Below are positions 1-33,636 of a DNA stretch of 34,683 nt, in pieces. Position numbers and translations under genes: made by a program. Every line of letters starts with the position of its first letter. The stretch's first letter is position 1. The notes under the pieces are model-generated. The model worked only from the letters and a program-made list of their open reading frames with translations. It was not told the DNA's origin and ran no database searches. Source of the stretch: Planctomycetia bacterium (GTDB taxonomy: Bacteria > Planctomycetota > PLA2 > JAEUHO01); the NCBI GenBank assembly GCA_016795345.1, contig JAEUHO010000586.1, positions 1 to 34,683 of the forward strand, given 5' to 3'.

Positions 1-870
1 GTCCGGCGCGGCCTCGTCGTGCTGGGGGCGGTCGTCGCGGCGACGGGCGTCGCCGCGGGCCTCCTGCTGGCGCGCTCGCGCCCGCGCGACGTCGTCGAGG
101 TGACCGCGCACCGGCTGGGGGCCATCGCCGCGCCCGAGAACACGCTCGCGGCGCTCGCGCGCGCGATCGCCGACGGCGCCGAGTGGGCCGAGCTCGACGT
201 GCAGCTGACCGCCGACGGGCACCTCGTCGTGCTGCACGACTTCGACCTCGTGCGGATCGGCGGGCCCCGCCGGCGCGTGGCGGCCTCCACGCTCGCGGAG
301 GTCCGCGCGATCGACGTGGGCCGGGGCCTGCGGCACGCCGGCTTCGAGGGCGAGCGCGTCCCGACGCTCGACGAGGTCGTCGCGGCGGCCGGCGACCGCA
401 TCCGCCTGAACATCGAGCTGAAGCCGCCGGACGCCGCGGCGGTCGGACCGCTCACGGACGCGGTCGTCGCCGTGGTGCGGCGCGCCGGGCTCGTGGGCCG
501 GTGCCGCCTCTGCTCGCAGTCCTACGCCGCGCTCCGCCGCGCGAAGACGGCGGAGCCGGGGCTCGAGGTCGGCTTCATCGCGGGGGCCGCCGTCGGCGAC
601 CTCGCGGCGCTCGACGTCGACTTCCTCATGGTGAACGCGGGGCTCGTGACGCCCGCATTCGTGCGGCGCGCGCACGCCGCCGGCCTCGAGGTCCATCCGT
701 GGACGGTCAACGACCCCGAGGCGGTGCCGCGGCTCGTCGACGCGGGGGTCGACAACGTGATCACCGACGCGCCGCGCGAGGTCCGCGCCCGCGTGGACGA
801 GGTGCTCGGCCTTTCGCTCGCGGAGCGCCTGCTGCTGCGCGTGCGCGGCCGCCTGACCGACGGGCGCTGA
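1..870 (+). CDS. Glycerophosphodiester phosphodiesterase family protein (5'-truncated by window edge)
   Basis: The frame is open from the first base, so the true start probably lies upstream; GTG at 19 is the first start codon inside. The visible part opens with a hydrophobic helix (VLGAVVAATGVAAGLLLA), followed by a complete GDPD TIM-barrel domain. Visible family marks are the catalytic histidine in TAHRLGAIAAPENT, the ELD metal-ligand pair, LVVLHD, LNIELK, VHPWTVND and the C-terminal NVITDAP. This family hydrolyses glycerophosphodiesters to glycerol-3-phosphate and an alcohol. The helix just before the domain suggests membrane anchoring, as in GDPD proteins that carry an N-terminal membrane domain. 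The usual HRG is HRL here, a glycine-to-leucine change beside the catalytic residues. Family assignment is firm; substrate is unknown. Confidence 0.85.
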   Translation, partial: VRRGLVVLGAVVAATGVAAGLLLARSRPRDVVEVTAHRLGAIAAPENTLAALARAIADGAEWAELDVQLTADGHLVVLHDFDLVRIGGPRRRVAASTLAEVRAIDVGRGLRHAGFEGERVPTLDEVVAAAGDRIRLNIELKPPDAAAVGPLTDAVVAVVRRAGLVGRCRLCSQSYAALRRAKTAEPGLEVGFIAGAAVGDLAALDVDFLMVNAGLVTPAFVRRAHAAGLEVHPWTVNDPEAVPRLVDAGVDNVITDAPREVRARVDEVLGLSLAERLLLRVRGRLTDGR

Positions 871-18807: not shown

Positions 18808-19287
18808 CTACTTCGCGGGCGGCGCCGGCGGCGGCGCGTCGAGCAGCGACCCGAGGGCGCCCGCGACCATCTTGAGGAAGGCGTGGTCGTCGGCGCTGAA
18901 CGCATCGACCTTGTCGCTGTCGATGTCGATCTGGCCGACGATCTTCCCGTGGGCGCGGATGAGCACGACGATCTCGCTGCGCGTCGTGGTCGAGCACGCG
19001 AGGTAGTTGGCGCGCTCGCGGACGTCCGGGACGACCTGGTCGCGGCCCTCGGCGACGGCGGTGCCGCAGACGCCCTGGCCGACCTTGATCCGGGTGTGTT
19101 CGGTGGGGGGGCCGACGAACGGTCCGAGGACCAACTCGTCGTCCTCGAGCCAGTAGATCCCCGTCCACCCGGCCTGCGGGAGCCGCTGGTGGATCGCCTC
19201 GACGACGACCTTGCCGAGGTCGTTCCGGTCGGTCTTGCAGGTCGCGCACTCGGCGATCGCGGCGAGGATGGGGGAGATGTCGGCCAA
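18808..19287 (-). CDS. GAF-domain protein related to free-methionine-(R)-sulfoxide reductase
   Basis: 159 residues from a TTG at 19287; the frame is open further upstream but without domain content, and no ATG/GTG fits, so the start is uncertain. The domain matches the fRMsr-type GAF family: GWTGIYWLEDDELVLGPFVG, IKVGQGVCGTAV, VVPDVRERANYLAC, SEIVVLI, GQIDIDSDKVDAFS. In that family three cysteines act together in reducing free Met-R-sulfoxide. The cysteines of GVCG and LAC are present, but the one expected a few residues before GVCG is Thr (EHTRI). A CATC pair near the N-terminus could compensate. It may be a reductase with altered recycling or a GAF sensor only. A CACAAT sequence upstream (19314-19319) could be its -10 box. 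Confidence 0.75.
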   Translation of the reverse strand: MADISPILAAIAECATCKTDRNDLGKVVVEAIHQRLPQAGWTGIYWLEDDELVLGPFVGPPTEHTRIKVGQGVCGTAVAEGRDQVVPDVRERANYLACSTTTRSEIVVLIRAHGKIVGQIDIDSDKVDAFSADDHAFLKMVAGALGSLLDAPPPAPPAK

Positions 19288-19480
19288 CGGGGTCCGTCCG
19301 GGGGGAGCCCCCCATTGTGCGGCAGGGACGGGCGCCGGGGGAGCGCCGGGGAGGGCGGAAGGGCCGGTCAATCGGCGCCGGAGGGCCCGGGGGGGCGTGG
19401 CGGGTCGGGCGCCGGACGCGTCGCGGGGCGGCGAGGGCGGCGCCACGGCGTCGGCCGTTCCGGTCCGGGAGGGGGCCCGG

Positions 19481-19486
19481 TACCCT
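19481..19486 (+). promoter_or_regulatory. -10 box TACCCT, leaderless start
   Basis: CCGG-TACCCT ends exactly 6 nt before the ATG at 19493. The intervening GCGGGG is not a convincing Shine-Dalgarno at zero spacing. Confidence 0.5.
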
Positions 19487-19492
19487 GCGGGG

Positions 19493-20347
19493 ATGAAGGT
19501 CTTCATCGCCGTCGACATGGAGGGCGCCACCGGGGTCGCCCATCGCGAGCACCTCCTGCCCGGGGGGAACGACTACGAGAAGGCGCGCCGCTGGCTGACG
19601 AGCGACGTGAACGCCGCGGTCGAGGGCGCGGTGGCCGCGGGCGCGACCGAGGTCTACGTCAACGACGGCCACGGGAACATGCGCAACCTGCTGCTCGACG
19701 AGCTGCACCCGGCGGCGCGGCTGGTGGTGGGGCCGGCGCAGGCGAAGAACAAGCCGCTGGTGCAGGTGACGGGCATCGAGGCCGGCGGGTTCGAGGCGGC
19801 GATGCTCGTCGGGTTCCACAGCCGCGCGGGCACGCCCGGCGGGCTGCTCTCGCACACGTGGGTCGGGATGCTCGTGCACGAGATCCGGCTGCAGGGGCAG
19901 GTGGCGGGCGAGACGTTGCTCGACGCGGCGATCGTGGGCCACTACGGCACGCCGGTGGTGCTCGTGACGGGCGCGGACGACGTGTGCCGCGAGGCGAAGG
20001 CCGACCTCGGGGCCGACCTCGCGACGGTCGAGGTGAAGCAGGTGCTCGGGCCGTCGGCCTGCGCGACGCTGACGCCGAAGCGCACGTTCCCGATGATCAA
20101 GGCGGCGGCGGAGCAGGCGGTGCGCGCGCGGCACCAGCGCAAGCCGTGGACGACGCGAGGCCCGGTGACGATGGACGTCGAGTTCCACCGGCGCGAGATG
20201 GCGCAGCGCGCGCTCGACACGGGGCTCGGCGCCGCGGTCGGCGACCGCTGCGTGCGGTACACGGGGCCCGACGTGCCGTCGGCGTCGCGGGACCTCTGGC
20301 GCGGCCTCGAGGAAGCGCTCCGCGAGGACGGCTCCTTCCTGAAGTAG
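19493..20347 (+). CDS. M55 family D-aminopeptidase (DppA-like)
   Basis: 284 residues, the usual length. Zinc-site residues of the M55 family are visible: Asp8 and Glu10 in IAVDMEG, His60 in VNDGHG, His109 in LVGFHSRAGTPGG, and Glu140 in GQVAGE, in the same order as Asp8, Glu10, His60, His104 and Glu133 of Bacillus subtilis DppA. The family forms a decameric self-compartmentalising peptidase that cleaves N-terminal D-residues such as D-Ala-D-Ala, so a role in recycling wall-derived D-peptides is likely. No transporter gene is adjacent. The ATG follows a -10 box by 6 nt. The core of the dispersed element (20155-20165) is present without its left arm. Confidence 0.92.
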   Translation: MKVFIAVDMEGATGVAHREHLLPGGNDYEKARRWLTSDVNAAVEGAVAAGATEVYVNDGHGNMRNLLLDELHPAARLVVGPAQAKNKPLVQVTGIEAGGFEAAMLVGFHSRAGTPGGLLSHTWVGMLVHEIRLQGQVAGETLLDAAIVGHYGTPVVLVTGADDVCREAKADLGADLATVEVKQVLGPSACATLTPKRTFPMIKAAAEQAVRARHQRKPWTTRGPVTMDVEFHRREMAQRALDTGLGAAVGDRCVRYTGPDVPSASRDLWRGLEEALREDGSFLK

Positions 20348-20365
20348 CCCGCCCGCCGCGCGCTC

Positions 20366-22237
20366 CTACGCCCCCAACCGTCGCAGGGCCTTCGCCGCGC
20401 GGTAGCGCACCCGGGCGTCGGCGTCCTTCGTGAGCGGCGCGAGGACTTCCTTCGCCTTCGCCTTGTCGCCGACGACGGCGCCCAGCGCATCGATCGCCGC
20501 GAGGCGGCGGAGGACGGGGGCTTCCACGCGGGAGCCCATGGCCCGCACCTCGAGGGCCTCTCGGACGAACGGCCACCCGGCGGCGTGTTCGGCACGTTCG
20601 GCCGCGTCCGGCTCCCACGCCGGTTCGGGGGGGTGAATCGCGTACGGCGTCGCGATGGCGATGATCGAGGCGGGGGCGTCGCCGACCGTCGCGATCGCCC
20701 GTAGCAGCAGGGTCGCCAGGACGGCGTCGTCGCGGGGGGCGGGCGATGCGAGGGCCGCTTCGAGTGTCGCGGGCGGGACCAGACCCGGGCGCTGGAGGTC
20801 GATGACGACCGCCGCGGCGACGCGTTGGTCGGCGGGCCGGGCACGTGGGGAGAGCGCTCGCCGCATCACCCGCTGGGCGAGGACGCGCTCGTCGTCGGCG
20901 AGGAGCGCCGTCGGCAGGTGATGCGCGAGCCACGCCAACGCGATGCACGGGCTGGCGGTCGCGCTGGCGTCGCCACGCTCCGCAGCCGCGTCGCCCGAAG
21001 GGCCGGATCCGGAGCCGGCCTCCGGCTCCGCCGGCAAGAGGAGTTCGCGCGATGCGGCGGAGTTCCGGGCCGCGGCGGCGAAGAGCCTCGGCAGCGCCGG
21101 GGCCGCGGCCGCCGCGAACGTCGCGTCCCGCCCGATCGCGAACACGACCGACGGGTCGATCGGGCGCTCCGACCGGGGCGAGGACCGCGCCGCCAGCTCG
21201 CGCGCCCAAGCGCTCGCGACCTCGTCGCGTGCACCGACGTCGAGCAGGTATCGGACCTGCACGCCGTCGAGGTGCTCCGGCATGGGATGGCTCGCGAGCA
21301 CCAGCGCACGGGCGGCCACCCCCAGGCTCCTCGCCGCGAAGAGGGCGTGGTTCCGTGTGACGCGGAACGGCGCGGCCTCGGGTTCGAGGGTCACTTGTTC
21401 GGCCTCGGACTCGGGCATCCGCGCGGCCGCGTCGAGGACGGCGGCGCGAGTGTCGGCGTCGTGCGGGGCGCCGACGCCGATCAGCATGAAACCCGCGAAC
21501 CGCACGACCGGGGACGGGGCCGCGAGGAGCGGGCGGAGGGTGCCGGCCGAGGCGGTGCCGTCGTCCGTCGCCTCCACGCCCGTGACGGCCGAGCGACCGA
21601 TGATGGTGACGACGGCGGCGGCGGTGCGCGCCGTCGCAGCGTCCCCCGAGGCCATCCAGGGCCGTGCGACCGCGAGGAGGCCGAGTCCATCGCCGAGCCC
21701 GGTGTCCATCGCGAACTCGCCGTACGGCGCGCGCAGGCGCAGGAGCGGGAGTCCGAGCAACGCCGCGCGCATCGTGTCCGCGGACGCGGTGCTGGCCGTG
21801 GCGAACGCGACCGCGAGGTCGGTGCGCGTGACGGCCGCGCCGAGCGAGCCCAGGAACCGGAACACCTCGTCGTGGAACGCGAGGCCCGCCGCGGACATCG
21901 TCGTCCACGCCTTCGCGGCGTCCTCCTGGCCGCGACGGCCGAGGAGGCGCAGCGCGCGGACGGCGGCCGCGCGCACCGTCGCGTCCTCGTCGCGCGTGGC
22001 GTCGAGCAGGACGGGCACCGCGACAGCCGCCTCCGGGTACCGCGTGCCGAGCGTCTCCGCGGCCTTCGCCCGCGTCGCGGGCTCGGGGGCCTCGAGGCCC
22101 GCGGCGATCGTCGCGACGTCGCTCGCGGCGGCAGGCGGGGCCGGCGCGTCGCCTGCGCGTGCGGGGCGGAGGACGGCGGTGGCGGCGAGTGCCACGAGCG
22201 CCGCGAAGAGGGTGGGTGTGATCGAGCGCCGGTTCAT
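20366..22237 (-). CDS. Secreted HEAT-repeat protein, paralogue 1
   Basis: 623 residues; ATG at 22237 with GGGAGG six bases upstream. Signal peptide about 1-29 (LFAALVALAATAVLRPARA). HEAT repeats follow at about 40-110 (DVATIAAGLEAPEPATRAKA, PVLLDATRDEDATVRAAAV). The middle (about 125-520) is diverged Ala/Leu-rich helical sequence. The last about 50 residues form a further HEAT unit (VLRRLAAIDALGAV ... DARVRYRAAKALRRLGA) almost identical in all three paralogues. Probably a periplasmic scaffold; no enzyme motif. It converges on the D-aminopeptidase gene with 18 nt between stops, and has its own promoter. Confidence 0.85.
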   Translation of the reverse strand: MNRRSITPTLFAALVALAATAVLRPARAGDAPAPPAAASDVATIAAGLEAPEPATRAKAAETLGTRYPEAAVAVPVLLDATRDEDATVRAAAVRALRLLGRRGQEDAAKAWTTMSAAGLAFHDEVFRFLGSLGAAVTRTDLAVAFATASTASADTMRAALLGLPLLRLRAPYGEFAMDTGLGDGLGLLAVARPWMASGDAATARTAAAVVTIIGRSAVTGVEATDDGTASAGTLRPLLAAPSPVVRFAGFMLIGVGAPHDADTRAAVLDAAARMPESEAEQVTLEPEAAPFRVTRNHALFAARSLGVAARALVLASHPMPEHLDGVQVRYLLDVGARDEVASAWARELAARSSPRSERPIDPSVVFAIGRDATFAAAAAPALPRLFAAAARNSAASRELLLPAEPEAGSGSGPSGDAAAERGDASATASPCIALAWLAHHLPTALLADDERVLAQRVMRRALSPRARPADQRVAAAVVIDLQRPGLVPPATLEAALASPAPRDDAVLATLLLRAIATVGDAPASIIAIATPYAIHPPEPAWEPDAAERAEHAAGWPFVREALEVRAMGSRVEAPVLRRLAAIDALGAVVGDKAKAKEVLAPLTKDADARVRYRAAKALRRLGA

Positions 22238-22258
22238 CTCGTTCCTCCCGAGACGCGG

Positions 22259-22264
22259 AGGATA
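22259..22264 (-). promoter_or_regulatory. -10 box TATCCT of HEAT paralogue 1
   Basis: GG-TATCCT, 21 nt before the ATG at 22237, with a Shine-Dalgarno in the leader. It matches the equivalent sites of the other two paralogues. Confidence 0.5.
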
Positions 22265-22304
22265 CCCATCCGGCGCGGATCGGGCCTCGCGTCGTCGTCG
22301 CCCG

Positions 22305-24173
22305 TCAGGCCCCCAACCGTCGCAGGGCCTTCGCCGCGCGGTAGCGCACCCGGGCGTCGGCGTCCTTCGTGAGCGGCACGAGGACCTCCTTCGCCTTCGC
22401 CTTGTCACCCGTGACCGCGCCCAGCGCGTCGATCGCCGCGAGGCGGCGGAGGACGGGGAACTCGAAGAAGGCGCCTCCGTTCTCCATGGCCATCGCGGGC
22501 TGGAAGAAGGGGGCGTCCGTCGCGATCGGCCCCCGACTGTTCGGCGGGATCGCCGGCGCGGGCTGGGTCACCGTGGCGATCGGGGCGAGGCGCGCGATCG
22601 CCTCGTCGGGGACCGGACCGACCGCGAGCGCCGCCAGCAGGTTGAGCTCGGTCGGCGCCGACTCCTTCGTGCGGCTGGCCTGCAGGGAGGCGAGCAGCGT
22701 CGCGGGCGGCACCAGCCCCGGCTTGCCGAGGTCCACGAGGATCGCCGCGGCCGTCATGCGGTCGGGGATCCGGTCCGCCGCGACCAACGCGCGGCGCAGC
22801 GCCCCCGCGGCCCGAGCCCGCATCCCCTTGTCCACCTCCGCCTCGGGGACGCGGTGCGCGAGCCACGCGAGCGCGAGGCATCGGTGCGGCTGGCGGCGCC
22901 ACGGCTCCTCCGGGGCCTCCTCGGCGGTGTCCTGCGGCACCGGGTCGGCAGGGGCGTTCGGGTCCACCGGCTGCAGCAGGGCGCGCGACGACTCGGACTC
23001 CGACCGCTCGGTGTCGACCAGCCGCGGCAGCGACTTGGCGGCCATGGAGGCGAGCTCCGTGTCCTCGCCGATCGCGAGGACGAGGCGGAGGCTGACCTGG
23101 CGCCGATGGCGCGGACCGACCCACTCGGCCATCGCCGCGCGCCAGACGTCCCGCACGAGGTTCTTCGCGCCGACCTCCAACCAGGTGCGGACCGTGCGGT
23201 CGTCCTCCTCGCCCGTCGCGGCCCGTCCCTCCGTCAGGAACGTGCTCGCCGGGGTGCCGAGGCTGCGCGCCGCGGCCTCGACGTCGTCGCGCTCGACCGC
23301 GAAGTCCGGCGGCTCGTCGCCGAGGCCGCGATTGTCCTTCGGGAGCGCGGCGGCGAGCTTCACGAGGGTCATGGCGGTGCGGAAGCTGTGCGGGGCGCCG
23401 TTGGCGACGAGCCGCCATCCGGCGAATCGAACGGCCGGGGCCTCCGCGGAGAGCATCGCCGCGAGCTGGGGCGCGGACGCCGTGTCGTCCTCGGGCGCCG
23501 CGCCGAACGGCGCCGCGACGGCCGACCGCCCGAGGATCGTCGCGGCGGCGGCGGCGGCGCGGGCGGTCGCGGGGTCCTTGGACGCGACGAACGGCAGGAC
23601 GACCTCGATCGGTCCCAGGGCATCGCGGAGCGCGATCCGGTACTCGAGCTCCCCGTCGCGCAACCGCACGGGGCAGAGCGTGAAGAGGTGGAGCGCCACG
23701 GGCGGGAGCGGCGACTTCGCGGCCGCGGCTTCGAGGATCAGGTGGGCGATGTCGGTCGGCGTGAGCGCCTGCCCGATCGTGAAGATGAAGCGAAACGCCT
23801 CGTGCATCGCGGCAAGGTCCGCCGCGGGTGCGGCCGCCCAGGCCTTCGCGGCGTCCTCTTGGCCGCGGCGGCCGAGGAGACGCACGGCGCGCAGGGCCGC
23901 CGCGCGCACCGTCGCGTCGTCGTCGCGCGTGGCCTCGAGGAGCACCGGGAGCGCGACGGCCGCCTCGGGGTACCGCGCGCCGAGCGTCTCGGCCGCCTTC
24001 GCTCGGGTCGCGGCGTCGGGTGCCTCGAGGCCCGCGGCGATCGTCGCGACGTCGTTCGCGGCGGCCGGCGCGGGCGCCGGCGGTGCGTCCGCCGCGTGTG
24101 CGGGGCGGAGGAGGGCGGCGGCGAGCACCGCGAGCGCCGCAATCGTGGTGGGGGTGATCGAGCGCCGGTTCAT
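22305..24173 (-). CDS. Secreted HEAT-repeat protein, paralogue 2
   Basis: 622 residues; ATG at 24173 with GGAGG five bases upstream. Same plan as its neighbours: signal peptide (AALAVLAAALLRPAHA), N-terminal HEAT units to about 110, long variable helical middle, and the near-identical C-terminal HEAT unit (KAKAKEVLVPLTKDADARVR). Its first about 110 residues are nearly identical to paralogue 3, but the following segment (AWAAAPAADLAAMHEAFRF) differs from both others. The middle includes conserved islands shared by the family (ILGRSAV, VRFAGWRL, GAPHS). It has a 67-nt spacer to paralogue 1. Confidence 0.85.
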   Translation of the reverse strand: MNRRSITPTTIAALAVLAAALLRPAHAADAPPAPAPAAANDVATIAAGLEAPDAATRAKAAETLGARYPEAAVALPVLLEATRDDDATVRAAALRAVRLLGRRGQEDAAKAWAAAPAADLAAMHEAFRFIFTIGQALTPTDIAHLILEAAAAKSPLPPVALHLFTLCPVRLRDGELEYRIALRDALGPIEVVLPFVASKDPATARAAAAAATILGRSAVAAPFGAAPEDDTASAPQLAAMLSAEAPAVRFAGWRLVANGAPHSFRTAMTLVKLAAALPKDNRGLGDEPPDFAVERDDVEAAARSLGTPASTFLTEGRAATGEEDDRTVRTWLEVGAKNLVRDVWRAAMAEWVGPRHRRQVSLRLVLAIGEDTELASMAAKSLPRLVDTERSESESSRALLQPVDPNAPADPVPQDTAEEAPEEPWRRQPHRCLALAWLAHRVPEAEVDKGMRARAAGALRRALVAADRIPDRMTAAAILVDLGKPGLVPPATLLASLQASRTKESAPTELNLLAALAVGPVPDEAIARLAPIATVTQPAPAIPPNSRGPIATDAPFFQPAMAMENGGAFFEFPVLRRLAAIDALGAVTGDKAKAKEVLVPLTKDADARVRYRAAKALRRLGA

Positions 24174-24193
24174 CGCGTCCTCCCGAGACGCGG

Positions 24194-24199
24194 ACGATA
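24194..24199 (-). promoter_or_regulatory. Extended -10 box TGG-TATCGT of HEAT paralogue 2
   Basis: TATCGT preceded by TGG, 20 nt before the ATG at 24173; identical in sequence and spacing to that of paralogue 3. Confidence 0.5.
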
Positions 24200-24238
24200 C
24201 CAAGTCGGCGCGGACCGCGCCCGGCGCAACGAGTTCGA

Positions 24239-26128
24239 TTACCCACCCAGTCGTCGGAGGGCCTTCGCGGCGCGGTACCGTACTCGGGCGTCGGGGTCCT
24301 TCGTGAGCGGCTCGAGGACCTTCTTCGCCTGCGCCTTGTCGCCGACGACCGCGCTCAGCGCGTCGATGGCTGCGAGGCGGCGGAGGGTGGGGTCCTCGGC
24401 GCTCTCGCCGGCGGACTTGACCTCGAGGGCTGCGAGCACGTACGGCCAGCCCGCGGCGAAGCGGAGCCGATCGGCGGCCGTCGGCACGTAACTCGGGGGC
24501 GTCGGGGCCGTCGCGAACGGCGCGGCGAGCGGCACGAACTCCGATGGCGCGTCCCCATTGGCGGTGATCGCGTGCAGCACGGCGATGGTCAGCGATGGGT
24601 CGGCAACGGTGCCGCGAGCCTGGAGCGCCGCCACGAGCGTCGAAGGTGGGACGAGCTCCCTACGGTTGAGGTCGGCGACGGCCGCCGCTGCCATCCTGCG
24701 GTCCTCGTACTGTCCCGGCTCGACGAGCGCTCGCCGGAGCGCGGCGGCGCTTCGGATACGGACGCCGTCGTCCAGGAGCGCCGCGGGTGTGCGCTGAGCC
24801 AGCCAGGCAAGCGCGAGGCAGGCGCTTGCCCGGGTCGTGGGCCACAATGACGGCGTCGGCGCCGCGGGGTCGTCCGGTACGGCGTCCGGTGGAGCGTTCG
24901 GATCGACGAGCGCCAGGAGTGCGCGGGCGCGATGTCCGAACCGCCGCTCCCGGTCGAGCAAAGCGCGAATCGATCCCGCCGCGTCCGCGACGAGGGTGGC
25001 GTCTCGGCCGGCGACGAATACGATCTCGACCTCCGGCGTTTCGTCGAGCTGCAACCGCTTCCAATCGTCGACGGCGAGCGCCCAGGCGCGGCGTGCTTCG
25101 TCCCAGGCCTCGACCGAGAGCAGCGCGGCGAGCCGCTCGCCGTCCGTCTTGGGTGCCGCGACCGAGCGCGGAGGCCCGGCTGTCCGCGCGATCGCCCCGA
25201 GCGACCGGGCTGCCGCCCAGCCGTCGGCATACTCAACCCGCAGGGGTGCGTCGAACTCGAGGCTCCGGCCTGCCGAGCCCTCGCGGGTCGGCAGCGCCTT
25301 GAGTGCGGACAGCGCGGCGGCGCCGGTCGCAGGCGAGTGCGGGGCGCCGGTGGCGAGCAGGCGCCAGGCAGCGAACCGAACGACCTCCCTCCGCGACGAG
25401 AGCAGCGGGACGATCGCGGGCGACGACGCCGTCGCGTCGTCAGGCGCGCGCTCGCGTTCGAACTCGCTCACGCCGGAGCGGCCGAGGATCGTGACGACCG
25501 CTGCGGCTGCGCGGGCGATCGTCGCGTCGCTGGACCGCAACCACGGCGCGGCGACGGCGAGGCAGTTCGCCGCATCGCGCCGCGCCACGGCGGACGCGAA
25601 TCGGAGTGTGGGCGGTCGTAGTTCCAGGGTCGCGAGACAGAAGAGGCCCGCGCGGATGAGCTCGGCGCCGCCGGCGCACGCCTCCGTGAAGCCCGCCGCC
25701 AGATCCACCGGCGTCGTCGCGGCGCCCAGGACGGCGACGATGCGGAAGACGTCGTGGTGGAACGCGAGGCCCGCCGCGGACATCGTCGTCCACGCCTTCG
25801 CGGCGTCCTCCTGCCCGCGACGGCCGAGAAGGCGCAGCGCGCGCACGGCGGCCGTGCGGACGGTCGCGTCCTCGTTGCGGGTTGCGTCGAGGAGCACCGG
25901 CACCGCGACGGCCGCCTCGGGGTACCGCGCGCCGAGCGTCTCGGCCGCCTTCGCGCGGGTCGCGGCGTCGGGCGCCTCGAGGCCCGCGGCGATCGTCGCG
26001 ACGTCGTTCGCGGCGGCCGGCGCGGGCGCCGGCGGTGCGTCCGCCGCGTGCGCGGGGCGGAGGAGGGCGGCGGCGGCGAGCACCGCGAGCGCCGCAATCG
26101 TGGTGGGGGTGATCGAGCGCCGGTTCAT
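24239..26128 (-). CDS. Secreted HEAT-repeat protein, paralogue 3
   Basis: 629 residues; ATG at 26128 with GGAGG five bases upstream. The signal peptide and first HEAT units match paralogue 2, but from about residue 75 (VPVLLDATRNEDATVRTAAVR, then AWTTMSAAGLAFH) it matches paralogue 1. The middle is diverged and less GC-extreme than the ends. It ends in the family's C-terminal HEAT unit with small changes (SAVVGDKAQAKKVLEPLTKD). Stop is TAA, unlike the TAG/TGA of its relatives. Likely a secreted scaffold made by tandem duplication with later exchange of end modules. Confidence 0.85.
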   Translation of the reverse strand: MNRRSITPTTIAALAVLAAAALLRPAHAADAPPAPAPAAANDVATIAAGLEAPDAATRAKAAETLGARYPEAAVAVPVLLDATRNEDATVRTAAVRALRLLGRRGQEDAAKAWTTMSAAGLAFHHDVFRIVAVLGAATTPVDLAAGFTEACAGGAELIRAGLFCLATLELRPPTLRFASAVARRDAANCLAVAAPWLRSSDATIARAAAAVVTILGRSGVSEFERERAPDDATASSPAIVPLLSSRREVVRFAAWRLLATGAPHSPATGAAALSALKALPTREGSAGRSLEFDAPLRVEYADGWAAARSLGAIARTAGPPRSVAAPKTDGERLAALLSVEAWDEARRAWALAVDDWKRLQLDETPEVEIVFVAGRDATLVADAAGSIRALLDRERRFGHRARALLALVDPNAPPDAVPDDPAAPTPSLWPTTRASACLALAWLAQRTPAALLDDGVRIRSAAALRRALVEPGQYEDRRMAAAAVADLNRRELVPPSTLVAALQARGTVADPSLTIAVLHAITANGDAPSEFVPLAAPFATAPTPPSYVPTAADRLRFAAGWPYVLAALEVKSAGESAEDPTLRRLAAIDALSAVVGDKAQAKKVLEPLTKDPDARVRYRAAKALRRLGG

Positions 26129-26148
26129 CGCGTCCTCCCGAGACGCGG

Positions 26149-26154
26149 ACGATA
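26149..26154 (-). promoter_or_regulatory. Extended -10 box TGG-TATCGT of HEAT paralogue 3
   Basis: TATCGT preceded by TGG, 20 nt before the ATG at 26128, within a leader that is the same as that of paralogue 2. Confidence 0.5.
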
Positions 26155-26169
26155 CCAAGTCGGCGCGGA

Positions 26170-26188
26170 CCGGGCCTCGCGTACCCGG
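26170..26188 (-). repeat. Dispersed 3'-end hairpin element
   Basis: In minus sense CCGGG-TACGCGAGG-CCCGG, beginning two bases after the TAG stop of the MscS-type gene (26191-26193), in its sense. Confidence 0.8.
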
Positions 26189-26190
26189 GG

Positions 26191-27876
26191 CTAGGACTTC
26201 GTCGACGGGGGGGTGGCCGGCGCCGGGACGTTCGCCGCGATCGAGACGGCGGGGGTCGGGCGGGGGATCACGAGGCCCTCGCGCTCGAACGCGGCGAGGA
26301 TCGCGTAGCGGAGGTCCGACGCGACGCCGCCGCGGTCGCGCACGCGCCAGGTCTGGGCGTAGAGCGCGAACACGAGGCCCGTCGGCGCCAACTCGACGAT
26401 CCGCACGACGGGCGAGGGCTCGCCGACGACCGAGGTGTGCTCGCGGGCCAGCGCCAGGAGGACGCGTTCGACCTTGGCCGGGTCGGTGCCGTGCTCGACG
26501 GTGACCTTCACCTCGACCAGCGCGTACGCGAGGCCGTGGGAGAGGTTGGTGAGGCGCTCGGCCATCATCTGCCGGTTGGGGACGAGCACGGTGGTGTTGT
26601 TGCCCGTGCGCAGGAGCGTGCCGCGCATGCGGATCGCCTCGACCGTGCCCGTGGTCTGGCCGACTTCGACCAGGTCGCCGACGCGGATGGGGCGCTCGAC
26701 GAGCATGACGTGGCCGCTGAAGAAGTTGCCCAGCACGTCCTGGAGGCCGTGGCCGAGGCCGATGCCCGCGGCGCCGAGGAACCACGCGAGGGAGCCGGTG
26801 TCCACGCCGAGCGCGTCGAGCGCGAGCACCGCGACGATCGCGATGACGACGTAGCGCAGGATCGCGAGGATCGCGTACCGGACGCCCACGTCCACCTCGG
26901 CCTTCGGGAAGACGAGGAACGTGAGGACCGTCTTCAGCACGCGGCCCACCACGATGACGACCGCCATCCGCGCGAACCCGCCGAGGACGCGGCCCCACGT
27001 GAGGACGCCGCCGCCGACGACGGGCGCGTCGAGCGCGTCGGCCACGCGGGCCGGGGTCAGGTCCCAGGCCCCGAGGACGGCCAGGGCGGTGCCGACGAGG
27101 ACGAGCGCCTGGATCGTGCCGACCCCGAGGCGCTCGAGCCCGACGGAGGCGGGGCTCGGCTCGGACTCGGTGCCGGGCGCGGCGCCCGCCCGGCCGATCG
27201 CGATCACCTCGCGCAGGCCGGCCCGCAGCCAGTGGGAGACGCCCGTCGCGACCAGGAGGATCCCGGCGGTGAGGAGGGCGTTGCGCAGGAGGAACGCCGC
27301 CAGCGGGAGGTAGCCGAGCCCGCGCGCGACCACGAGGACGAGCGCCGTGACGACCGCGAACGGGAAGATCACGCGCGTCGCCATCGTCGCAAGGGCGCCG
27401 AGCAGGCCGGCGCCGGCGCGACGGCGGAGGCCGGCGAGCACGCCGCCCGCGGCGAGCGCGGTGGCGCCGAACAACACGAGGGCGCCGTCGCGGGCGATGC
27501 GCAGCGCCGCCGCGACCGCCGGGCTGCCGCCCGCGGACCGCACCAGCCAGCGCCCGCCCTCCGTGAGGAGCAGCGCGAAGAGCAGCGCGCGGCCGGCCAT
27601 GCTCACCTGCGCGGCGCGGGCGTCGTCGAGCCGCACGAGCCGGAGCGCGGGGCGCACGGGCGAGAGGACCTCGACCAGGAGCCCGCGCAGCAGCGACCAG
27701 CCGAGGAGGAACAGCCCGGTGCCGAGCACCTGCCGGCGGAGCGTCGCGTCGGCCCCGAGCAGCGCGGTGGCCGCGAGGCCGAGCCCGACGAGGGCGAGGT
27801 GGGGCGCCATGCGCCACAGCAGGCGGAGCGCGCGCAGGCCCGGGACCCAGCGGCGGGGGGTGCCGGCGGGGCTCAT
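26191..27876 (-). CDS. MscS-family mechanosensitive channel, MscK-like membrane half
   Basis: 561 residues with about ten membrane helices between 20 and 390. The pore helix region (about 360-395) reads SLAWFLGAAGIGLGHGLQDV then NFFSGHVML, followed by ERPIRVGDLVEVGQTTGTVE and VLVPNRQMMAERLTN, the MscS beta domain (about 395-465), and a C-terminal alpha/beta domain to about 545. GLGxGLQ...NFxSG...E(K/R)PIRxGD is closer to E. coli MscK/MscM than to small MscS. Such channels open under membrane tension to release solutes in osmotic downshock. The start ATG overlaps the upstream stop as ATGA, so the pair is translationally coupled. The large N-terminal periplasmic domain of MscK is missing here and appears to be supplied by that upstream gene. 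Confidence 0.88.
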   Translation of the reverse strand: MSPAGTPRRWVPGLRALRLLWRMAPHLALVGLGLAATALLGADATLRRQVLGTGLFLLGWSLLRGLLVEVLSPVRPALRLVRLDDARAAQVSMAGRALLFALLLTEGGRWLVRSAGGSPAVAAALRIARDGALVLFGATALAAGGVLAGLRRRAGAGLLGALATMATRVIFPFAVVTALVLVVARGLGYLPLAAFLLRNALLTAGILLVATGVSHWLRAGLREVIAIGRAGAAPGTESEPSPASVGLERLGVGTIQALVLVGTALAVLGAWDLTPARVADALDAPVVGGGVLTWGRVLGGFARMAVVIVVGRVLKTVLTFLVFPKAEVDVGVRYAILAILRYVVIAIVAVLALDALGVDTGSLAWFLGAAGIGLGHGLQDVLGNFFSGHVMLVERPIRVGDLVEVGQTTGTVEAIRMRGTLLRTGNNTTVLVPNRQMMAERLTNLSHGLAYALVEVKVTVEHGTDPAKVERVLLALAREHTSVVGEPSPVVRIVELAPTGLVFALYAQTWRVRDRGGVASDLRYAILAAFEREGLVIPRPTPAVSIAANVPAPATPPSTKS

Positions 27877-30176
27877 GCGCCGCCTCCCGCGGCCGGCGGC
27901 GGCGGGTCCTCGGGGCCGGCGGGGGCGCCGGACACCTCGTGCAGCGCCGCGGCCTCCGCCGCCTTCATCGCCGCGGTCTCCTGCACCTTCTTCTCGGCGA
28001 CGGCCTCGCGCTCCTCCTCGACGCTGGCGCCCGCGACGGGCTCGGCCGGGTCGAGGACGACGCGATCGAGGCGGGCGGTGATCCACCGGCGCAGGCGTCG
28101 CACGCCGACGAAGCAGAGGAGCGCCGCCGACGCGAGGCCCGCGAGCGCCCACGCGTGCGCGCGCGCGAAGGTGCCGACGTGTTCGTCGCCGCGGAACGTG
28201 AGCCAGTGCCACGCGGCCTCCACGTGGGTGCCCGCGTGTTCCGCGTCCTCGGCGAAGACCTCCGGGTTCACCTCGGGGTCCACGCGGATGCCGAAGCTCC
28301 GCGGGCCCTGGTCGAGCAGGGCGTCGCGCAGGCGCGTGAGCGCCGCGAGCTGGGCGGTCAGCCGCGCCTTCTCGGCGTCGATGCCCGCGACGGCGTCGGC
28401 GTGGTCGGCGCGCGCCTGCTTCAGGGCGGCGCGGAAGCCCCGGATCCGCCAGAGCGCGCGCGCGGGGGCGGCGGCCTCCGCCGTCCCGATCCGCGCCTCG
28501 GCGTCGGCCGCCGCGGCCTCGAAGCGCGCGGTCACGGCGGCGCGGTCCTCGGTGGCGCGGAGCCGGACGCGCAGGGCCGCGATCCGGCGCACGGCCGCCG
28601 CGTGGTTGCGCGTGACGAGCTCCGTGTCGAAGCGAGGGAGCTGGCGGAGGGCGCCGTCCACGTACGCGAGGTCGAGGCCCGCGGCCTCGGGGTCGCGGTA
28701 GACGACGAGGTCGTCGCGGGCGGTGGTCGCGGTCGGCGCGACGCCGGGCGAGGGGCGGTCGCCCGTGCTCGCGTCCGACCGCGCGGTCAGGCGGCGCAGC
28801 TTCACCGCGTCGCGCACGACGCCGTTCACGGCCAGGAGCGCCTGGTACACGTCGGCGACGGCGAGGTTCCACGCGGCGTCCTCGGCGCGGACGGCGGCGC
28901 CGGGGCCGGGCGGGCGCCGCGCCTCCTCGAGCGACGCCGCGAGCTCGCCGGCCTCGTAGTCGAGGCGGTCGAGCTGCCGTTCGCGCCGCACGCGCTGGAG
29001 CTCGTCGGTGAAGCGGGAGGCCGCGAGCTCCGCGGCGAGGGCCTCCGTCCGGGCGAGCTGCGCCGCGCCTTCGTGGAGCCGGGCCCTCGCGTCGGCGCGC
29101 AGCGCGGCCCAGAGGAGGAGGCGCAGCTCGAGGGACGCGAGCGCCTCCTCCGCCTCGAGCTCTCGGACGCCGAGCTCCGGGACCGACAGGGCCGGTGACG
29201 CCTCGGGCGCCGTCGGCGTCGCCGGCGCCGGGGCGCCCGACCGGTCGGCGGCGCGTTTGCTCACGTCGATGCGGCCGGCGAGGTCGCCGAGCTGCTTGCG
29301 GACGGCCTTCCCTTCCGCGACCAGCGCGTCGAGCCGCGCGACCTGCGCGTCCCGGGCGCGCTCGAGGCCCTCGGCTTCCTCGCGGTGCTCGGCGGCGCGC
29401 CGCGTCTTCTCGCGGACCGTGGACTCGTCCACCAGGCCCGGCGTGGGCGACTCCTTGGCGTACGCCTCCGCGCGCTCCTTCGCCTGGACCGCGCGCAGCC
29501 GCAGCCACGGCTCGTTCACGTCGGGGTCGGCGCCGAGGCCCTCGTAGAGGAGCCGCCCCCGCGGGCTGCGGGCGGCGAGCGCGGCGAGCGGGCCCAGGTC
29601 GAGGCACGGCGTGGGCGAGGCCTCGACGACCTTCGTCAGCAGGGTGCCCTCGCTGTCGAGCACCGCGCGGACGAGCGACGCCCACGGGTCGGGGGGCTCG
29701 TCCGGCGACGACGGCTTCGTCGCGTCGGCGGGCGCGGCGGGCCGGAGCGGGTACGACCGCGGCGGCCTGCCGTCGCGTCCGCGCACCACGACCGGGCAGT
29801 CCTCGAGCCCGATCACCCAGCGATACAGCCGTCGCGACATCGCGAGCGCGCCGGGCGCGGCGGAGCCGGGCAGCAGCGCCGCGCGCCGATCGACGTGCTC
29901 GGCGAAGCGTCGCAGCGTCTCCGAGACGTCGGCCCGTCCCGCGCTGCCGGCGGCCTGCCAGGCGGCCAGGAGCTTCCGGTCGTTCTCGAGGGCGTCCACG
30001 AGCGGTTCGAGGTTCGTCTCCTCGCCGCTGGCGGGGACGACGGACTTCGCCTCGCTGACGAGGGCCTCGCGGGCGTACCGCCGTCGGTTCGCGTCGTCGT
30101 CGGCCTGGGCTGCCACGGGCAGCAGGGCGGCCGCCGCGAGCCACCCAGCAACGAGACGGGCCGTGGAACGTCGCAC
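27873..30176 (-). CDS. Periplasmic coiled-coil protein coupled to the MscS-type channel
   Basis: 767 residues from a GTG at 30176 placed 6 nt after a TAGGAT box. Signal peptide about 1-25 (LVAGWLAAAALLPVAAQA). Residues about 30-660 are mostly charged, Ala/Arg/Glu-rich helices predicted to form coiled coils (KTRRAAEHREEAEGLERARD, ELQRVRRERQLDRLDYEAGE, IDAEKARLTAQLAALTRLRD). One membrane helix lies at about 671-691 (AWALAGLASAALLCFVG), followed by a cytoplasmic tail with a short helix (VEEEREAVAEKKVQETAAMK) and a Pro-rich end. Layout matches the N-terminal periplasmic region of MscK/MscM, which here would be a separate subunit. Function is inferred from coupling and layout, not from sequence motifs. 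Confidence 0.75.
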   Translation of the reverse strand: MRRSTARLVAGWLAAAALLPVAAQADDDANRRRYAREALVSEAKSVVPASGEETNLEPLVDALENDRKLLAAWQAAGSAGRADVSETLRRFAEHVDRRAALLPGSAAPGALAMSRRLYRWVIGLEDCPVVVRGRDGRPPRSYPLRPAAPADATKPSSPDEPPDPWASLVRAVLDSEGTLLTKVVEASPTPCLDLGPLAALAARSPRGRLLYEGLGADPDVNEPWLRLRAVQAKERAEAYAKESPTPGLVDESTVREKTRRAAEHREEAEGLERARDAQVARLDALVAEGKAVRKQLGDLAGRIDVSKRAADRSGAPAPATPTAPEASPALSVPELGVRELEAEEALASLELRLLLWAALRADARARLHEGAAQLARTEALAAELAASRFTDELQRVRRERQLDRLDYEAGELAASLEEARRPPGPGAAVRAEDAAWNLAVADVYQALLAVNGVVRDAVKLRRLTARSDASTGDRPSPGVAPTATTARDDLVVYRDPEAAGLDLAYVDGALRQLPRFDTELVTRNHAAAVRRIAALRVRLRATEDRAAVTARFEAAAADAEARIGTAEAAAPARALWRIRGFRAALKQARADHADAVAGIDAEKARLTAQLAALTRLRDALLDQGPRSFGIRVDPEVNPEVFAEDAEHAGTHVEAAWHWLTFRGDEHVGTFARAHAWALAGLASAALLCFVGVRRLRRWITARLDRVVLDPAEPVAGASVEEEREAVAEKKVQETAAMKAAEAAALHEVSGAPAGPEDPPPPAAGGGA

Positions 30177-30182
30177 CCGCCC

Positions 30183-30188
30183 ATCCTA
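30183..30188 (-). promoter_or_regulatory. -10 box TAGGAT, leaderless GTG start
   Basis: On the minus strand TAGGAT ends exactly 6 nt (GGGCGG) before the GTG at 30176. There is no Shine-Dalgarno. Confidence 0.5.
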
Positions 30189-30237
30189 CGTTCCTCACCG
30201 CCCCCTTCCGCCCTCCGTCCCCGCCGCCCGCTCCCCC

Positions 30238-30258
30238 TTCTTCTTCTTCTTCTTCTTC
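30238..30258. repeat. (TTC)7 / (GAA)7 trinucleotide microsatellite
   Basis: Seven perfect TTC units on the plus strand, about 50 nt upstream of the -10 box of the minus-strand coiled-coil/MscS operon. Confidence 0.85.
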
Positions 30259-30551
30259 TCGTCCGTGGTGCAACTTCGACCGCGCGTCGCCTCTCGCGCC
30301 CCCGCCCTCTCACCGTCGATGGTGCAAGTGCGCCCGCGGCCTCCCTCGCGCGGGCTTCGCCGGCTCGCCCGCTCGTGGCCGGCGCTGCGCCGGCCACCGT
30401 TCGGCATGTGCGCGAGCCCGCCGGAACGTCCTTGTACGCCCCGCTCCGCTCCTTAGATCCCGTTCCGGATCCACAGGGCATTCAGAGCTCGCGCAGAACA
30501 GCGCGCGGAAGGAAACATCGGTCGCGGGACGCTCCAGCCCCACAAACGAAG

Positions 30552-30581
30552 ACGGGCGCCCCTGGTGAGAGGGGCGCCCGT
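30552..30581 (-). terminator. Intrinsic terminator of the histone gene
   Basis: A perfect 12-bp stem ACGGGCGCCCCT / AGGGGCGCCCGT with a six-base loop, 23 nt downstream of the histone stop. On the minus strand it is followed shortly by a T-rich CTTCGTTTG. Confidence 0.75.
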
Positions 30582-30604
30582 TCATCGATCACGTACCGAC
30601 GGGT

Positions 30605-30811
30605 CTACAGGTCCTGCGGCCGGACCGTCCCGCGGCCATTCGCCTTGCAGCGCTCGATGGCCTTCTTCAGCATCCCGCCGACCGCCGCGCTGACGGCGTC
30701 CGTCAGGTCGCCCGCCGCGCGGACGCCCGCGCCACGGACCACGTCCTTGACCTTCGACGCGACGACGAGGTTGCCGGCGCCGCCCTTCGCAGCCTTCTTG
30801 GCCTTCGCCAT
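30605..30811 (-). CDS. Bacterial histone-fold protein (Bdellovibrio-type / single histone fold)
   Basis: 68 residues. A Lys/Ala tail (MAKAKKAAKGGAG) is followed by a compact histone fold: LVVASKVKDVVRGAGVRAAG, the long central helix DLTDAVSAAVGGMLKKAIER, and CKANGRGTVRPQDL. Arg60, Thr62 and Asp67 correspond to the R-T/D clamp of archaeal histones (GRKTVKAED). The truncated end after DL matches the minimal bacterial type rather than the longer archaeal HMf type. It is expected to be a dimeric, DNA-binding chromatin protein. ATG at 30811 has AAGGAG about ten bases upstream. A strong terminator follows, so it is monocistronic. A pI-raising Lys tail fits DNA binding. Misassignment to another small helical DNA-binding family is possible but less likely. 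Confidence 0.85.
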   Translation of the reverse strand: MAKAKKAAKGGAGNLVVASKVKDVVRGAGVRAAGDLTDAVSAAVGGMLKKAIERCKANGRGTVRPQDL

Positions 30812-31164
30812 GGGAGTTTGTCTCCTTGGAATCGCTCGGAATCTCGGTCCCCGCGGTGTTCCAAGCCATCCGCGGGAGCCTGGCGGGGCGGACGAGAAAC
30901 GCTTCTCGCGCCGCGAACCACCTACTGCGTGAAGATTCGTAGCACGTGGGGGGGACACGACGAAAGAATCTGTTTTCGTCCCAATCGCCAGCCCGTCGCA
31001 CGCGACCGCCCGGAAGCCGCATCCGATCCCCACCCGACCCCCCGAAAAGCCCTGGGTTTTCCTTGGAATTCGAAGGGTTCCCTCTCCACGCGGCACCCCG
31101 CGCCCGGCCCGGCCTCGCCAATCCCCCCGTTGGACGCAGAATTCGGCGCTTTCGTCGCGCGAGG
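30812..31164. other. 353-nt spacer upstream of the histone gene, relatively AT-rich, with hairpins
   Basis: Less GC-rich than its surroundings. Contains inverted repeats CGAGAA/TTCTCG (30893-30908) and GACGAAA/TTTCGTC (30959-30980), and a stretch near 31049-31080 with GGTTTTCC and GGAATTCGAAGG. A TTGGAA (minus strand, about 30860) could be a -35 box for the histone gene, but I cannot place a good -10. No gene is seen. Confidence 0.5.
30959..30980. repeat. Inverted repeat in the histone upstream region
   Basis: GACGAAA and TTTCGTC, 7-bp stem with an 8-nt loop, about 150 bp upstream of the histone start. Confidence 0.55.
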
Positions 31165-31797
31165 TCAGGGCAGCCGCACGCTGACCGCGACGCCGTCCCG
31201 AAGCGGCAGGATCGTCGTGCGCAGGCGGGGGTGGGTCGTGACCGCTTCCACGTACCGCCGGATGGCGACGGTGGCCGGGTCCTGGGCCGTCCGATCCGCC
31301 ACCGCGCCGTCCCAGAGGACGTTGTCGGTCACCAGCAGCCCCCCGGGTCGAAGCCGCGCGACCGCCGGCTCGACGACGTCCGGATACCCCTCCTTGTCGA
31401 TGTCGCAGTACACGACGTCGAACGGGCCCGTCTCGCGCCGGAACGCCGACAGGGCGTCCTCGCGGACGTACCGGACCCGGTCCCGGTCCCCGAGCCGATC
31501 GAGGTACGCGAGGCCCCGTGCGACGTTGTCGGGGTCGAGGTCGGTGAGGGTGACCTGGCCGTCGGCGGGCATCCCCCGGAGCCACCACGCCGCTGAGTAC
31601 CCGAACCCGCTGCCCAGCTCGTACACGCGGCGGGCGCCGATGGACCGGGCCAGCACCTCCAGCAGCGACCCGACGGCGGGCCCGACGATCGGGAAGCCCC
31701 GGGTGCGGGCGTACGCCTCCATCTCGAGGAACACCGCGTCGCGGGCGGGGGCGTGGGCGTAGACGTAGGCGTCCACCGTCGGATCGGTGATGGGCAT
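31165..31797 (-). CDS. Class I SAM-dependent O-methyltransferase (CCoAMT/catechol OMT type)
   Basis: 210 residues, the usual length. SAM-binding motifs: YELGSGFGYSAAWW (motif I), LTDLDPDNV (acidic end of strand 2), FDVVYCDIDKEGYPDVV (motif IV with metal-ligand Asp), and LVTDNVLWDGAVAD (Asp-Asn ligands). The family transfers methyl groups to hydroxyls of catechol-like or other small substrates with a divalent metal; the substrate is not known. The N-terminal MPITDPTVDAYVYAHAPARD is typical. The ATG at 31797 follows a TAGCGT box by 7 nt. It is divergent from thyX across a pyrimidine-rich tract. Confidence 0.92.
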   Translation of the reverse strand: MPITDPTVDAYVYAHAPARDAVFLEMEAYARTRGFPIVGPAVGSLLEVLARSIGARRVYELGSGFGYSAAWWLRGMPADGQVTLTDLDPDNVARGLAYLDRLGDRDRVRYVREDALSAFRRETGPFDVVYCDIDKEGYPDVVEPAVARLRPGGLLVTDNVLWDGAVADRTAQDPATVAIRRYVEAVTTHPRLRTTILPLRDGVAVSVRLP

Positions 31798-32013: not shown

Positions 32014-32019
32014 TCCTTG

Positions 32020-33636
32020 GTGCTCATGTCCGCCGCCCCGGTCGGTCCCGTCCTGTCGCGCGAGCCGGAGGTCCGGCTCGTGAACGCGTTCCCGCGTCCC
32101 TACGAGAACGCGGTCGCGACGGCGCGGACGTGTTACTCGGGGCGCGGGATCGTGGAGACCGAGGAGGTCTCGGGCGGGCCCGGGCTCTCCGAGGAGAAGC
32201 GCCGGAAGAAGGTCGAGCAACGCGACCGCATCGCGAAGTCGATCTACCAGGCCGGCCACCACACGACGCTCCAGCACGCGCACTTCCAGTTCGCGCTCGA
32301 CGCGGTGTCGCGGCAGTTCCTCTGGTCGTTCCTCCACGCGCACCCGTTCTACAACTCCGAGCAGGTCAGCCAGCGCTACGTCGAGGTGCGGGCGGGCAAC
32401 TACACGGTGCCGCCGCTCTCGGGCGAGGCGCTGGCGGTGTACGAGGCGTGCGCCCAGCGGCAGATGGCCGAGTACCACCGCCTGATCGAGCTGCTGACGC
32501 CGGTGGTCGAGCGGGTGTACTTCGGCGTGTTCCCGGCGCGCAAGCCGCGGGCCGAGCAGTGGAAGGGCGCGGTCCAGAAGAAGGCGCAGGAGATCGCCCG
32601 TTACGTCCTGCCGCTGGCGACGCACGCGTACCTCTATCACACCGTCTCCGGGCTCACGCTGCTGCGGTACTGGCGGCTCTGCGAGACCTACGACGCCCCG
32701 CGCGAGCAGCGGCTCGTCGTGAAGAAGATGGTCGACGCGCTCCTGGCGCACGATCCCCTGGTCGCGACGATCCTCGAGGAGCCGCTGCCGCTCGAGGAGA
32801 CGCCGGAGCACGCGTTCTTCGTCTCGACGATCGGCGGCGCGGCGAACGGCGCCACCCGCGACCGCGCGGCGGCGGAGTTCGACCGGGCGCTCGGCGACCG
32901 CGTGAGCCTGCTGGTGGACTGGAAGGGGCGCAACGAGGAGGTCGTCGCGGCGTCGGTGCGCGAGGTGCTCGGCGTGCCGCGGGCGCTGCTCTCCGACGAC
33001 GAGGCGATCCTCCTCGCGCTCGACCCGGCGAGCAACAAGACCCTCGGCCAGAGCCTCAACGTCTCGACGATCTCGAAGCTGACGCGGGCGCTGTCGCACG
33101 CGTCGTACACGTTCCGCAAGCGGCTGTCCCACACCGCCGACAGCCAGGACCAGCGCCACCGCATGACGCCGGCCTCGCGGCCGTGCCTGCCGGCGTACCT
33201 CTCGGACCAGCCCGACTACGTCCGGCCGGCGATCGTCTACGAGGACGACGCCGTGCGGCAGGCGTACGACGAGAGCATGGCGCGGACGTGGGACGCGATC
33301 CGGCGCCTGCGCGCGCTGGGCGTGTCCGACGAGGACCGCGCGTACCTGCTGCCGAACGCCGTGAGCATCCGCTTCACGGAGAGCGCCGACCTCCTCCACC
33401 TGCACCACAAGCTGAAGATGCGCCTCTGCTACAACGCGCAGGAGGAGATCTGGCGCGCCAGCCGCGACGAGGCGATGCAGATCGGCGAGGTCAACCGCCG
33501 CATCGGCCGCTACCTGCTGCCGCCCTGCACGCTGCGGAAGATGGCGGGCGCGGCGCCCATCTGCCCCGAGGGCGACCGCTTCTGCGGCGTCCGCGTGTGG
33601 AAGATGGAGATCGCCGACTATCGGCGTCTGATCTGA
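32020..33636 (+). CDS. thyX: Flavin-dependent thymidylate synthase, long tandem-domain form
   Basis: About 538 residues, roughly twice the usual ThyX length, with two Thy1-like halves. Half 1 (about 15-240) has AGHHTTLQHAHFQFALDAVS and HPFYNSEQVSQRYVEV; half 2 (about 265-530) has RKRLSHTADSQDQRHRM and HLHHKLKMRLCYNAQEE. ThyX makes dTMP from dUMP using FAD, NADPH and methylene-tetrahydrofolate. The classical RHRx7S motif is altered in both halves: HAHPF precedes SEQVSQRY in half 1, and RKR replaces RHR in half 2. Such long forms are annotated as ThyX in several bacterial groups. Start choice: GTG 32020 lies nine bases after GGAGG; TTG 32017 (six) and ATG 32026 (fifteen) are alternatives. Confidence 0.85.
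   Translation: MLMSAAPVGPVLSREPEVRLVNAFPRPYENAVATARTCYSGRGIVETEEVSGGPGLSEEKRRKKVEQRDRIAKSIYQAGHHTTLQHAHFQFALDAVSRQFLWSFLHAHPFYNSEQVSQRYVEVRAGNYTVPPLSGEALAVYEACAQRQMAEYHRLIELLTPVVERVYFGVFPARKPRAEQWKGAVQKKAQEIARYVLPLATHAYLYHTVSGLTLLRYWRLCETYDAPREQRLVVKKMVDALLAHDPLVATILEEPLPLEETPEHAFFVSTIGGAANGATRDRAAAEFDRALGDRVSLLVDWKGRNEEVVAASVREVLGVPRALLSDDEAILLALDPASNKTLGQSLNVSTISKLTRALSHASYTFRKRLSHTADSQDQRHRMTPASRPCLPAYLSDQPDYVRPAIVYEDDAVRQAYDESMARTWDAIRRLRALGVSDEDRAYLLPNAVSIRFTESADLLHLHHKLKMRLCYNAQEEIWRASRDEAMQIGEVNRRIGRYLLPPCTLRKMAGAAPICPEGDRFCGVRVWKMEIADYRRLI

Follow-up and report, generated by a model that had tools for sequence, protein, structure and literature searches.

A very small alpha3 histone, probably of the bacterial FtF subfamily, retained together with HU in a bacterial family of probable Planctomycetota

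We find that a 68-residue protein encoded in the window (by which we mean the whole stretch of 34,683 nucleotides that was analysed) is, with high probability, an alpha3 histone with a single domain, belonging to the face-to-face (FtF) subfamily of bacteria and serving as a housekeeping chromatin protein. By analogy with HLp, an FtF histone of Leptospira perolatii, formation of a tetramer, wrapping of DNA and high abundance are to be expected of it. The protein fits well into a known family, and its gene is fixed in its bacterial family; the persistence of histones in Planctomycetota (PMC10627809) and the presence of FtF histones there (PMC11390915) have already been published. What is offered here is a clean, family-wide case of a putative wrapping-type histone in bacteria that also carry HU, beyond Leptospira, where such histones were studied.

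A histone fold in 68 residues

A phmmer comparison with the PDB matched only bacterial and archaeal alpha3 histones, the best being HLp (9qt0, 3.9e-7), followed by HBb (1.3e-4) and by 9f2c (2.2e-4), which is the archaeal FtF histone HTkC (PMC11390915). With a profile made from 24 relatives the matches became far stronger: 1.1e-24 (89.8 bits) for HLp, 5e-12 for HTkC and 1e-10 (44.9 bits) for HBb. Such an HMM search, together with structure prediction, had been proposed in an earlier note on this DNA as the check on its claim of a single histone fold; the profile search bears the claim out, although the Pfam histone models match only below their cut-offs and neither Pfam nor NCBIfam names the protein above cut-off.

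The structure prediction agrees. AlphaFold2, using the same 24-relative alignment, gave a model with pLDDT of at least 90 in 44 of the 68 residues, covering most of the fold, and with a one-turn terminal helix (Table 1). Foldseek placed this model closest to HLp with DNA (9qt1, TM 0.93 on the target) and to HLp (9qt0), over 55 residues at 0.7 A, and its nine best matches were all alpha3 histones, so that a histone fold, and no unrelated small-helical family, was recovered. The model and the translation show the features that mark alpha3 histones: a short alpha2, an alpha3 of 3-4 residues and the RxTxxxxD motif. In 68 residues there is one domain, without the extra domain of the ZZ, phage and Rab GTPase histones, and one fold, as against the two folds per chain of the DUF1931 pseudodimers, to which Pfam similarity is weak (E 0.035). 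As modelled, the protein is a very small true histone. The R-T/D clamp can be read in the translation as R60-G-T62-VRPQ-D67, exactly as the earlier note had numbered it (Arg60, Thr62, Asp67), and the Lys-rich N-terminal tail that it described carries lysines at 3, 5, 6 and 9 and is predicted to be disordered (pLDDT below 50 over most of residues 1-11).

Table 1. Features of the histone gene, its product and its surroundings in the window (helices from the AlphaFold2 model; ranges in the second to fourth rows are residues)
Feature	Position	Strand	Remarks
Histone CDS, 68 aa	30811-30605	minus	ORF translation; 68 codons + TAG: MAKAKKAAKGGAGNLVVASKVKDVVRGAGVRAAGDLTDAVSAAVGGMLKKAIERCKANGRGTVRPQDL
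Histone segments	tail 1-13; alpha1 18-27; alpha2 36-57; one-turn alpha3 65-67		
Histone key residues	R60-D67; R54, N58, R60		RD clamp; FtF tetramer residues
Histone DNA contacts	A18-S19-K20, K22, R26, G34, T62, R64		by homology with HLp
Ribosome-binding site AAGGAG	30822..30827	minus	10 nt before ATG; sequence reading
Intrinsic terminator hairpin	30581-30552	minus	perfect 12-bp stem, then CTTCGTTTGT
Leader hairpin CGAGAAGCGTTTCTCG	30908-30893	minus	fold; stem in sister species CGGGAAGCGATTCTCG, a pairing-preserving substitution (alignment)
Extended -10-like promoter element TGCTACGAA	30944-30936	minus	133 nt upstream of ATG
Block CCCCCCACGTGCTACG, 16 nt	30938..30953	minus	identical in sister species amid diverged intergenic region (alignment)
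O-methyltransferase (PF01596)	31165..31797	minus	upstream of histone, same strand; likewise in sister species
thyX (Thy1, 539 aa)	32017..33636	plus	DNA-precursor gene of the conserved neighbourhood
GAF-domain protein, free methionine-(R)-sulfoxide reductase family	18808..19530	minus	start codon uncertain

FtF histone or Bdellovibrio-type dimer

HLp assembles as an FtF tetramer and wraps ~60 bp, with R49, N53 and R55 in the network of its dimer-dimer interface (PMC12701072), whereas HBb is a dimer and bends DNA (PMC11317129); R48 and N52, conserved in FtF histones and corresponding to R49 and N53 of HLp, are missing from dimer histones (PMC11390915). Both of these residues are present in the window protein, the three interface residues of HLp mapping to R54, N58 and R60, where HBb has S, D and R. 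Together with D67 and K20 they are invariant across the 24 relatives, in which only eight columns are invariant, and the R-N-R triad was found in 44 of the 49 bacterial histones scored, the window protein included. Because R54, N58 and R60 are present, and because the profile lies 45 bits nearer to HLp than to HBb, we assign the protein to the FtF subfamily, the assignment being made from a single-chain model and from residues, while the formal definition is a predicted tetramer with two dimer-dimer interfaces.

The likeness to HLp (PDB 9QT0/9QT1/9QT2; 36% identity over the aligned 55 residues) extends to the short alpha2, the one-turn alpha3, the tetramer residues, the RD clamp, the SK.K...K contacts and the short disordered tail. 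Three tetramer-contact positions of HLp are replaced (S52 by A57, T61 by Q66 and F63 by L68), and so are three DNA contacts of its loops (T27 by A32, K54 by G59 and T56 by G61); the main DNA-contact residues, SK.K...K/R and T.R, are retained, so that these contacts are largely kept overall. HTkC of Thermococcus kodakarensis (9F2C) has the same fold (TM 0.89 on the target, 1.0 A), but is the weaker sequence match and has E where HLp has N53; tails are also generally lacking in archaeal FtF histones, whereas the window protein is tailed.

The earlier note had instead brought in the Bdellovibrio type (HBb/Bd0055; 8CMP, 8FVX, 9EZZ), in which the protein would act as a dimer, bending DNA or coating it end-on. 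Homology to HBb is detectable at the phmmer level given above; the alpha3 fold, the alpha1 lysines, the RD clamp, an equally short alpha2 and a one-turn alpha3 are shared, and HBb-like histones do exist in the phylum (family f43). We nevertheless regard this reading as very improbable, since R54 and N58, which S and D replace in HBb, are present here and in all 24 close relatives, since HBb stands so far below HLp with the profile, and since the f43 proteins (..KSDGRKTVM..) show how that type appears within this phylum.

A further feature of the family is a cysteine, C55, at the end of alpha2 beside R54, common to most members (L006-L014); a second cysteine, in loop 1, is found in most family members and is absent from the window protein.

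A proposed wrapping role alongside HU

As an FtF histone, the protein would pair into a histone-fold dimer, and two such dimers would meet face to face, held by R54, N58, R60 and the ends of alpha3, to close a tetrameric ring. The basic rim of this ring (A18-S19-K20, K22, R26, loop 1 and T62-R64) could then wrap about 60 bp with no strong preference for particular sequences, and the Lys-rich tail would add to the DNA contacts. We suggest that the histone acts alongside HU, and that its gene is transcribed from a promoter of its own, about 130 nt upstream, to its own hairpin.

Some histone folds act as regulators or as parts of protein complexes. That the window protein should likewise be something other than a general DNA packager, such as a regulator or a complex subunit, might be argued from the presence of HU in every genome of the group, which means that a second packager is not strictly needed, and from the replacement of several L1/L2 DNA-contact residues. 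We give this very little credence, however: the main DNA contacts are retained, the net charge is strongly positive, there is no additional domain, every sampled genome of the family keeps the gene, and in Bdellovibrio no nucleoid protein is more abundant than the histone, even with HU present (PMC10627809).

The gene and its transcription signals

The ORF had been placed exactly by the earlier note (30605-30811, 68 residues), its strand, which is the minus one, being left unstated. This 77% GC window has many ORFs that overlap and are spurious; to judge from its sequence and conservation, the histone ORF is a real gene and not a chance ORF, because a ribosome-binding site precedes it, the sister species has a copy at 87% identity, and all sampled genomes of the family contain a homologue. 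That there might be no gene here, or one for an unrelated protein, small and helical or rich in Ala and Lys, could be urged from the shortness of the ORF amid so many spurious ones and from the sub-threshold Pfam matches, but this was already refuted by conservation across the family, and the ribosome-binding site, promoter-like element, terminator and 0.7 A fold match leave it next to no probability.

Three features of the flanking DNA had also been proposed, namely a terminator of the gene's own, an AT-rich upstream region and a hairpin within that region, and our results speak for each of them. A generic terminator scan did not reach significance by itself (shuffles would give 0.8), but hairpins of differing sequence stand at the same position 3′ of the histone in nearly all of the relatives examined, the exception being L093, which has no clear hairpin downstream. 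GC content is 66.0% in the region upstream, the figure for the window being 76.7%; among stretches of equal length only 0.6% reach its AT content, and the 200 bp in which the window is richest in AT begin at 30801. Within this leader is a small stem that is kept in the sister species (Table 1). High expression of the gene, to which the earlier note had linked these features, is plausible.

The conserved block CCCCCCACGTGCTACG, of which this is the only exact copy in the window, overlaps the -10-like element TGCTACGAA. In 8 of 9 family members a TGnTA(C/G)-like element lies at a distance of 115-188 nt before the ATG, shuffles giving an expectation of 0.035, a contrast that overstates the case because the pattern was picked after inspection. 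The promoter-like element, leader and hairpin would fit a separately transcribed gene with a monocistronic-looking anatomy. Rfam, searched with the window and seven of the relatives, gave no known RNA family, and therefore no known riboswitch or leader.

Distribution in the phylum

Histone homologues were found in 12 of 12 sampled genomes of the family and in 5 of 5 of the sister family (17 of 17 together), and histones matching the profile in 136 of the 294 genomes sampled from the phylum, representing 98 of 202 genera. The earlier note had called histones rare in bacteria, which is true overall, where they occur in <2% of genomes (PMC12701072), but not of the host phylum, in which about half of the sampled genomes have them. 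The nearest match in named genomes is on a Nannocystaceae MAG contig (L004; 61%), with R-N-R kept.

The host phylum is probably Planctomycetota, to judge from the published distribution of FtF histones and from the PSD1 domain, which was present in 40 of 59 relatives' genomes, in up to 38 copies, and in none of 14 control genomes. DUF1559 (PF07596) was uninformative as a planctomycete marker, no control genome being positive; the EUB338-II 16S site was matched in only 2 genomes, most of the recovered 16S sites reading ACTCCTACGGGAGGCTGC.

Since HU-family proteins were found in 59 of 59 genomes tested, that of the window included, the histone supplements HU here instead of taking its place, unlike the situation in those Leptospira species that have been described as lacking HU.

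The HBb-like histones of family f43 (L107-L110; G223, G186, G126, G097) carry S/T-DGRKTVM and have R/K/N-D-R at the triad positions, as expected of the HBb type, and so both wrapping-type and bending-type histones appear, from their residues, to occur in this phylum. With the wrapping (R-N-R) and bending (D-G-R) types in a single phylum, one could ask how the one became the other and how a chromosome is shared between a histone and HU. Some divergent histones of the phylum (L111-L116, L125) have the alpha1 motif IISKSRTK with the R-N-R triad kept, and are possibly a separate subgroup.

Gene neighbourhood

Whereas the HLp gene lies beside smc/map, the window histone gene is beside thyX. Each of the 12 genomes sampled in the family (the window with L087-L094 and L127-L129) has at least one of the DNA-precursor genes nrdJ, dcd and thyX at a distance of about 5 kb or less from the histone: nine have the class II ribonucleotide reductase gene nrdJ, two of them with the dCTP deaminase gene dcd as well, and three, the window among them, have thyX. 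In 29 regions of 3 to 18 kb around histones of other families none of the three genes was found, and in the sister family (L095-L098) it is queC that lies beside the histone, in 4 of 4 genomes examined.

A literature search for a published link between histone and DNA-precursor genes found nothing relevant, and the neighbourhood is apparently unreported so far. It may reflect inherited gene order instead of function, as there are at most two independent arrangements. That histone supply is tied to DNA-precursor supply, with histone and dNTP production co-regulated with replication, we consider unlikely; if true, such coupling would be a bacterial parallel to S-phase histone expression, and a functional link of this kind would provide a new idea on how bacterial histone dosage is set.

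The ThyX of the window contains two Thy1 stretches and is about twice the usual length. The GAF gene, which in several relatives follows the histone directly on its downstream side, is 11 kb away in the window, where about 10 kb (20350-30600) lie between the histone and the M55 peptidase/GAF genes; the sister species (G001, L087) lacks this stretch. Within it are paralogues in tandem, at about 22.4 kb and 26 kb, of a protein whose sequence starts with MNRRSITPT, and a gene that by eye looks likely to encode a mechanosensitive channel.
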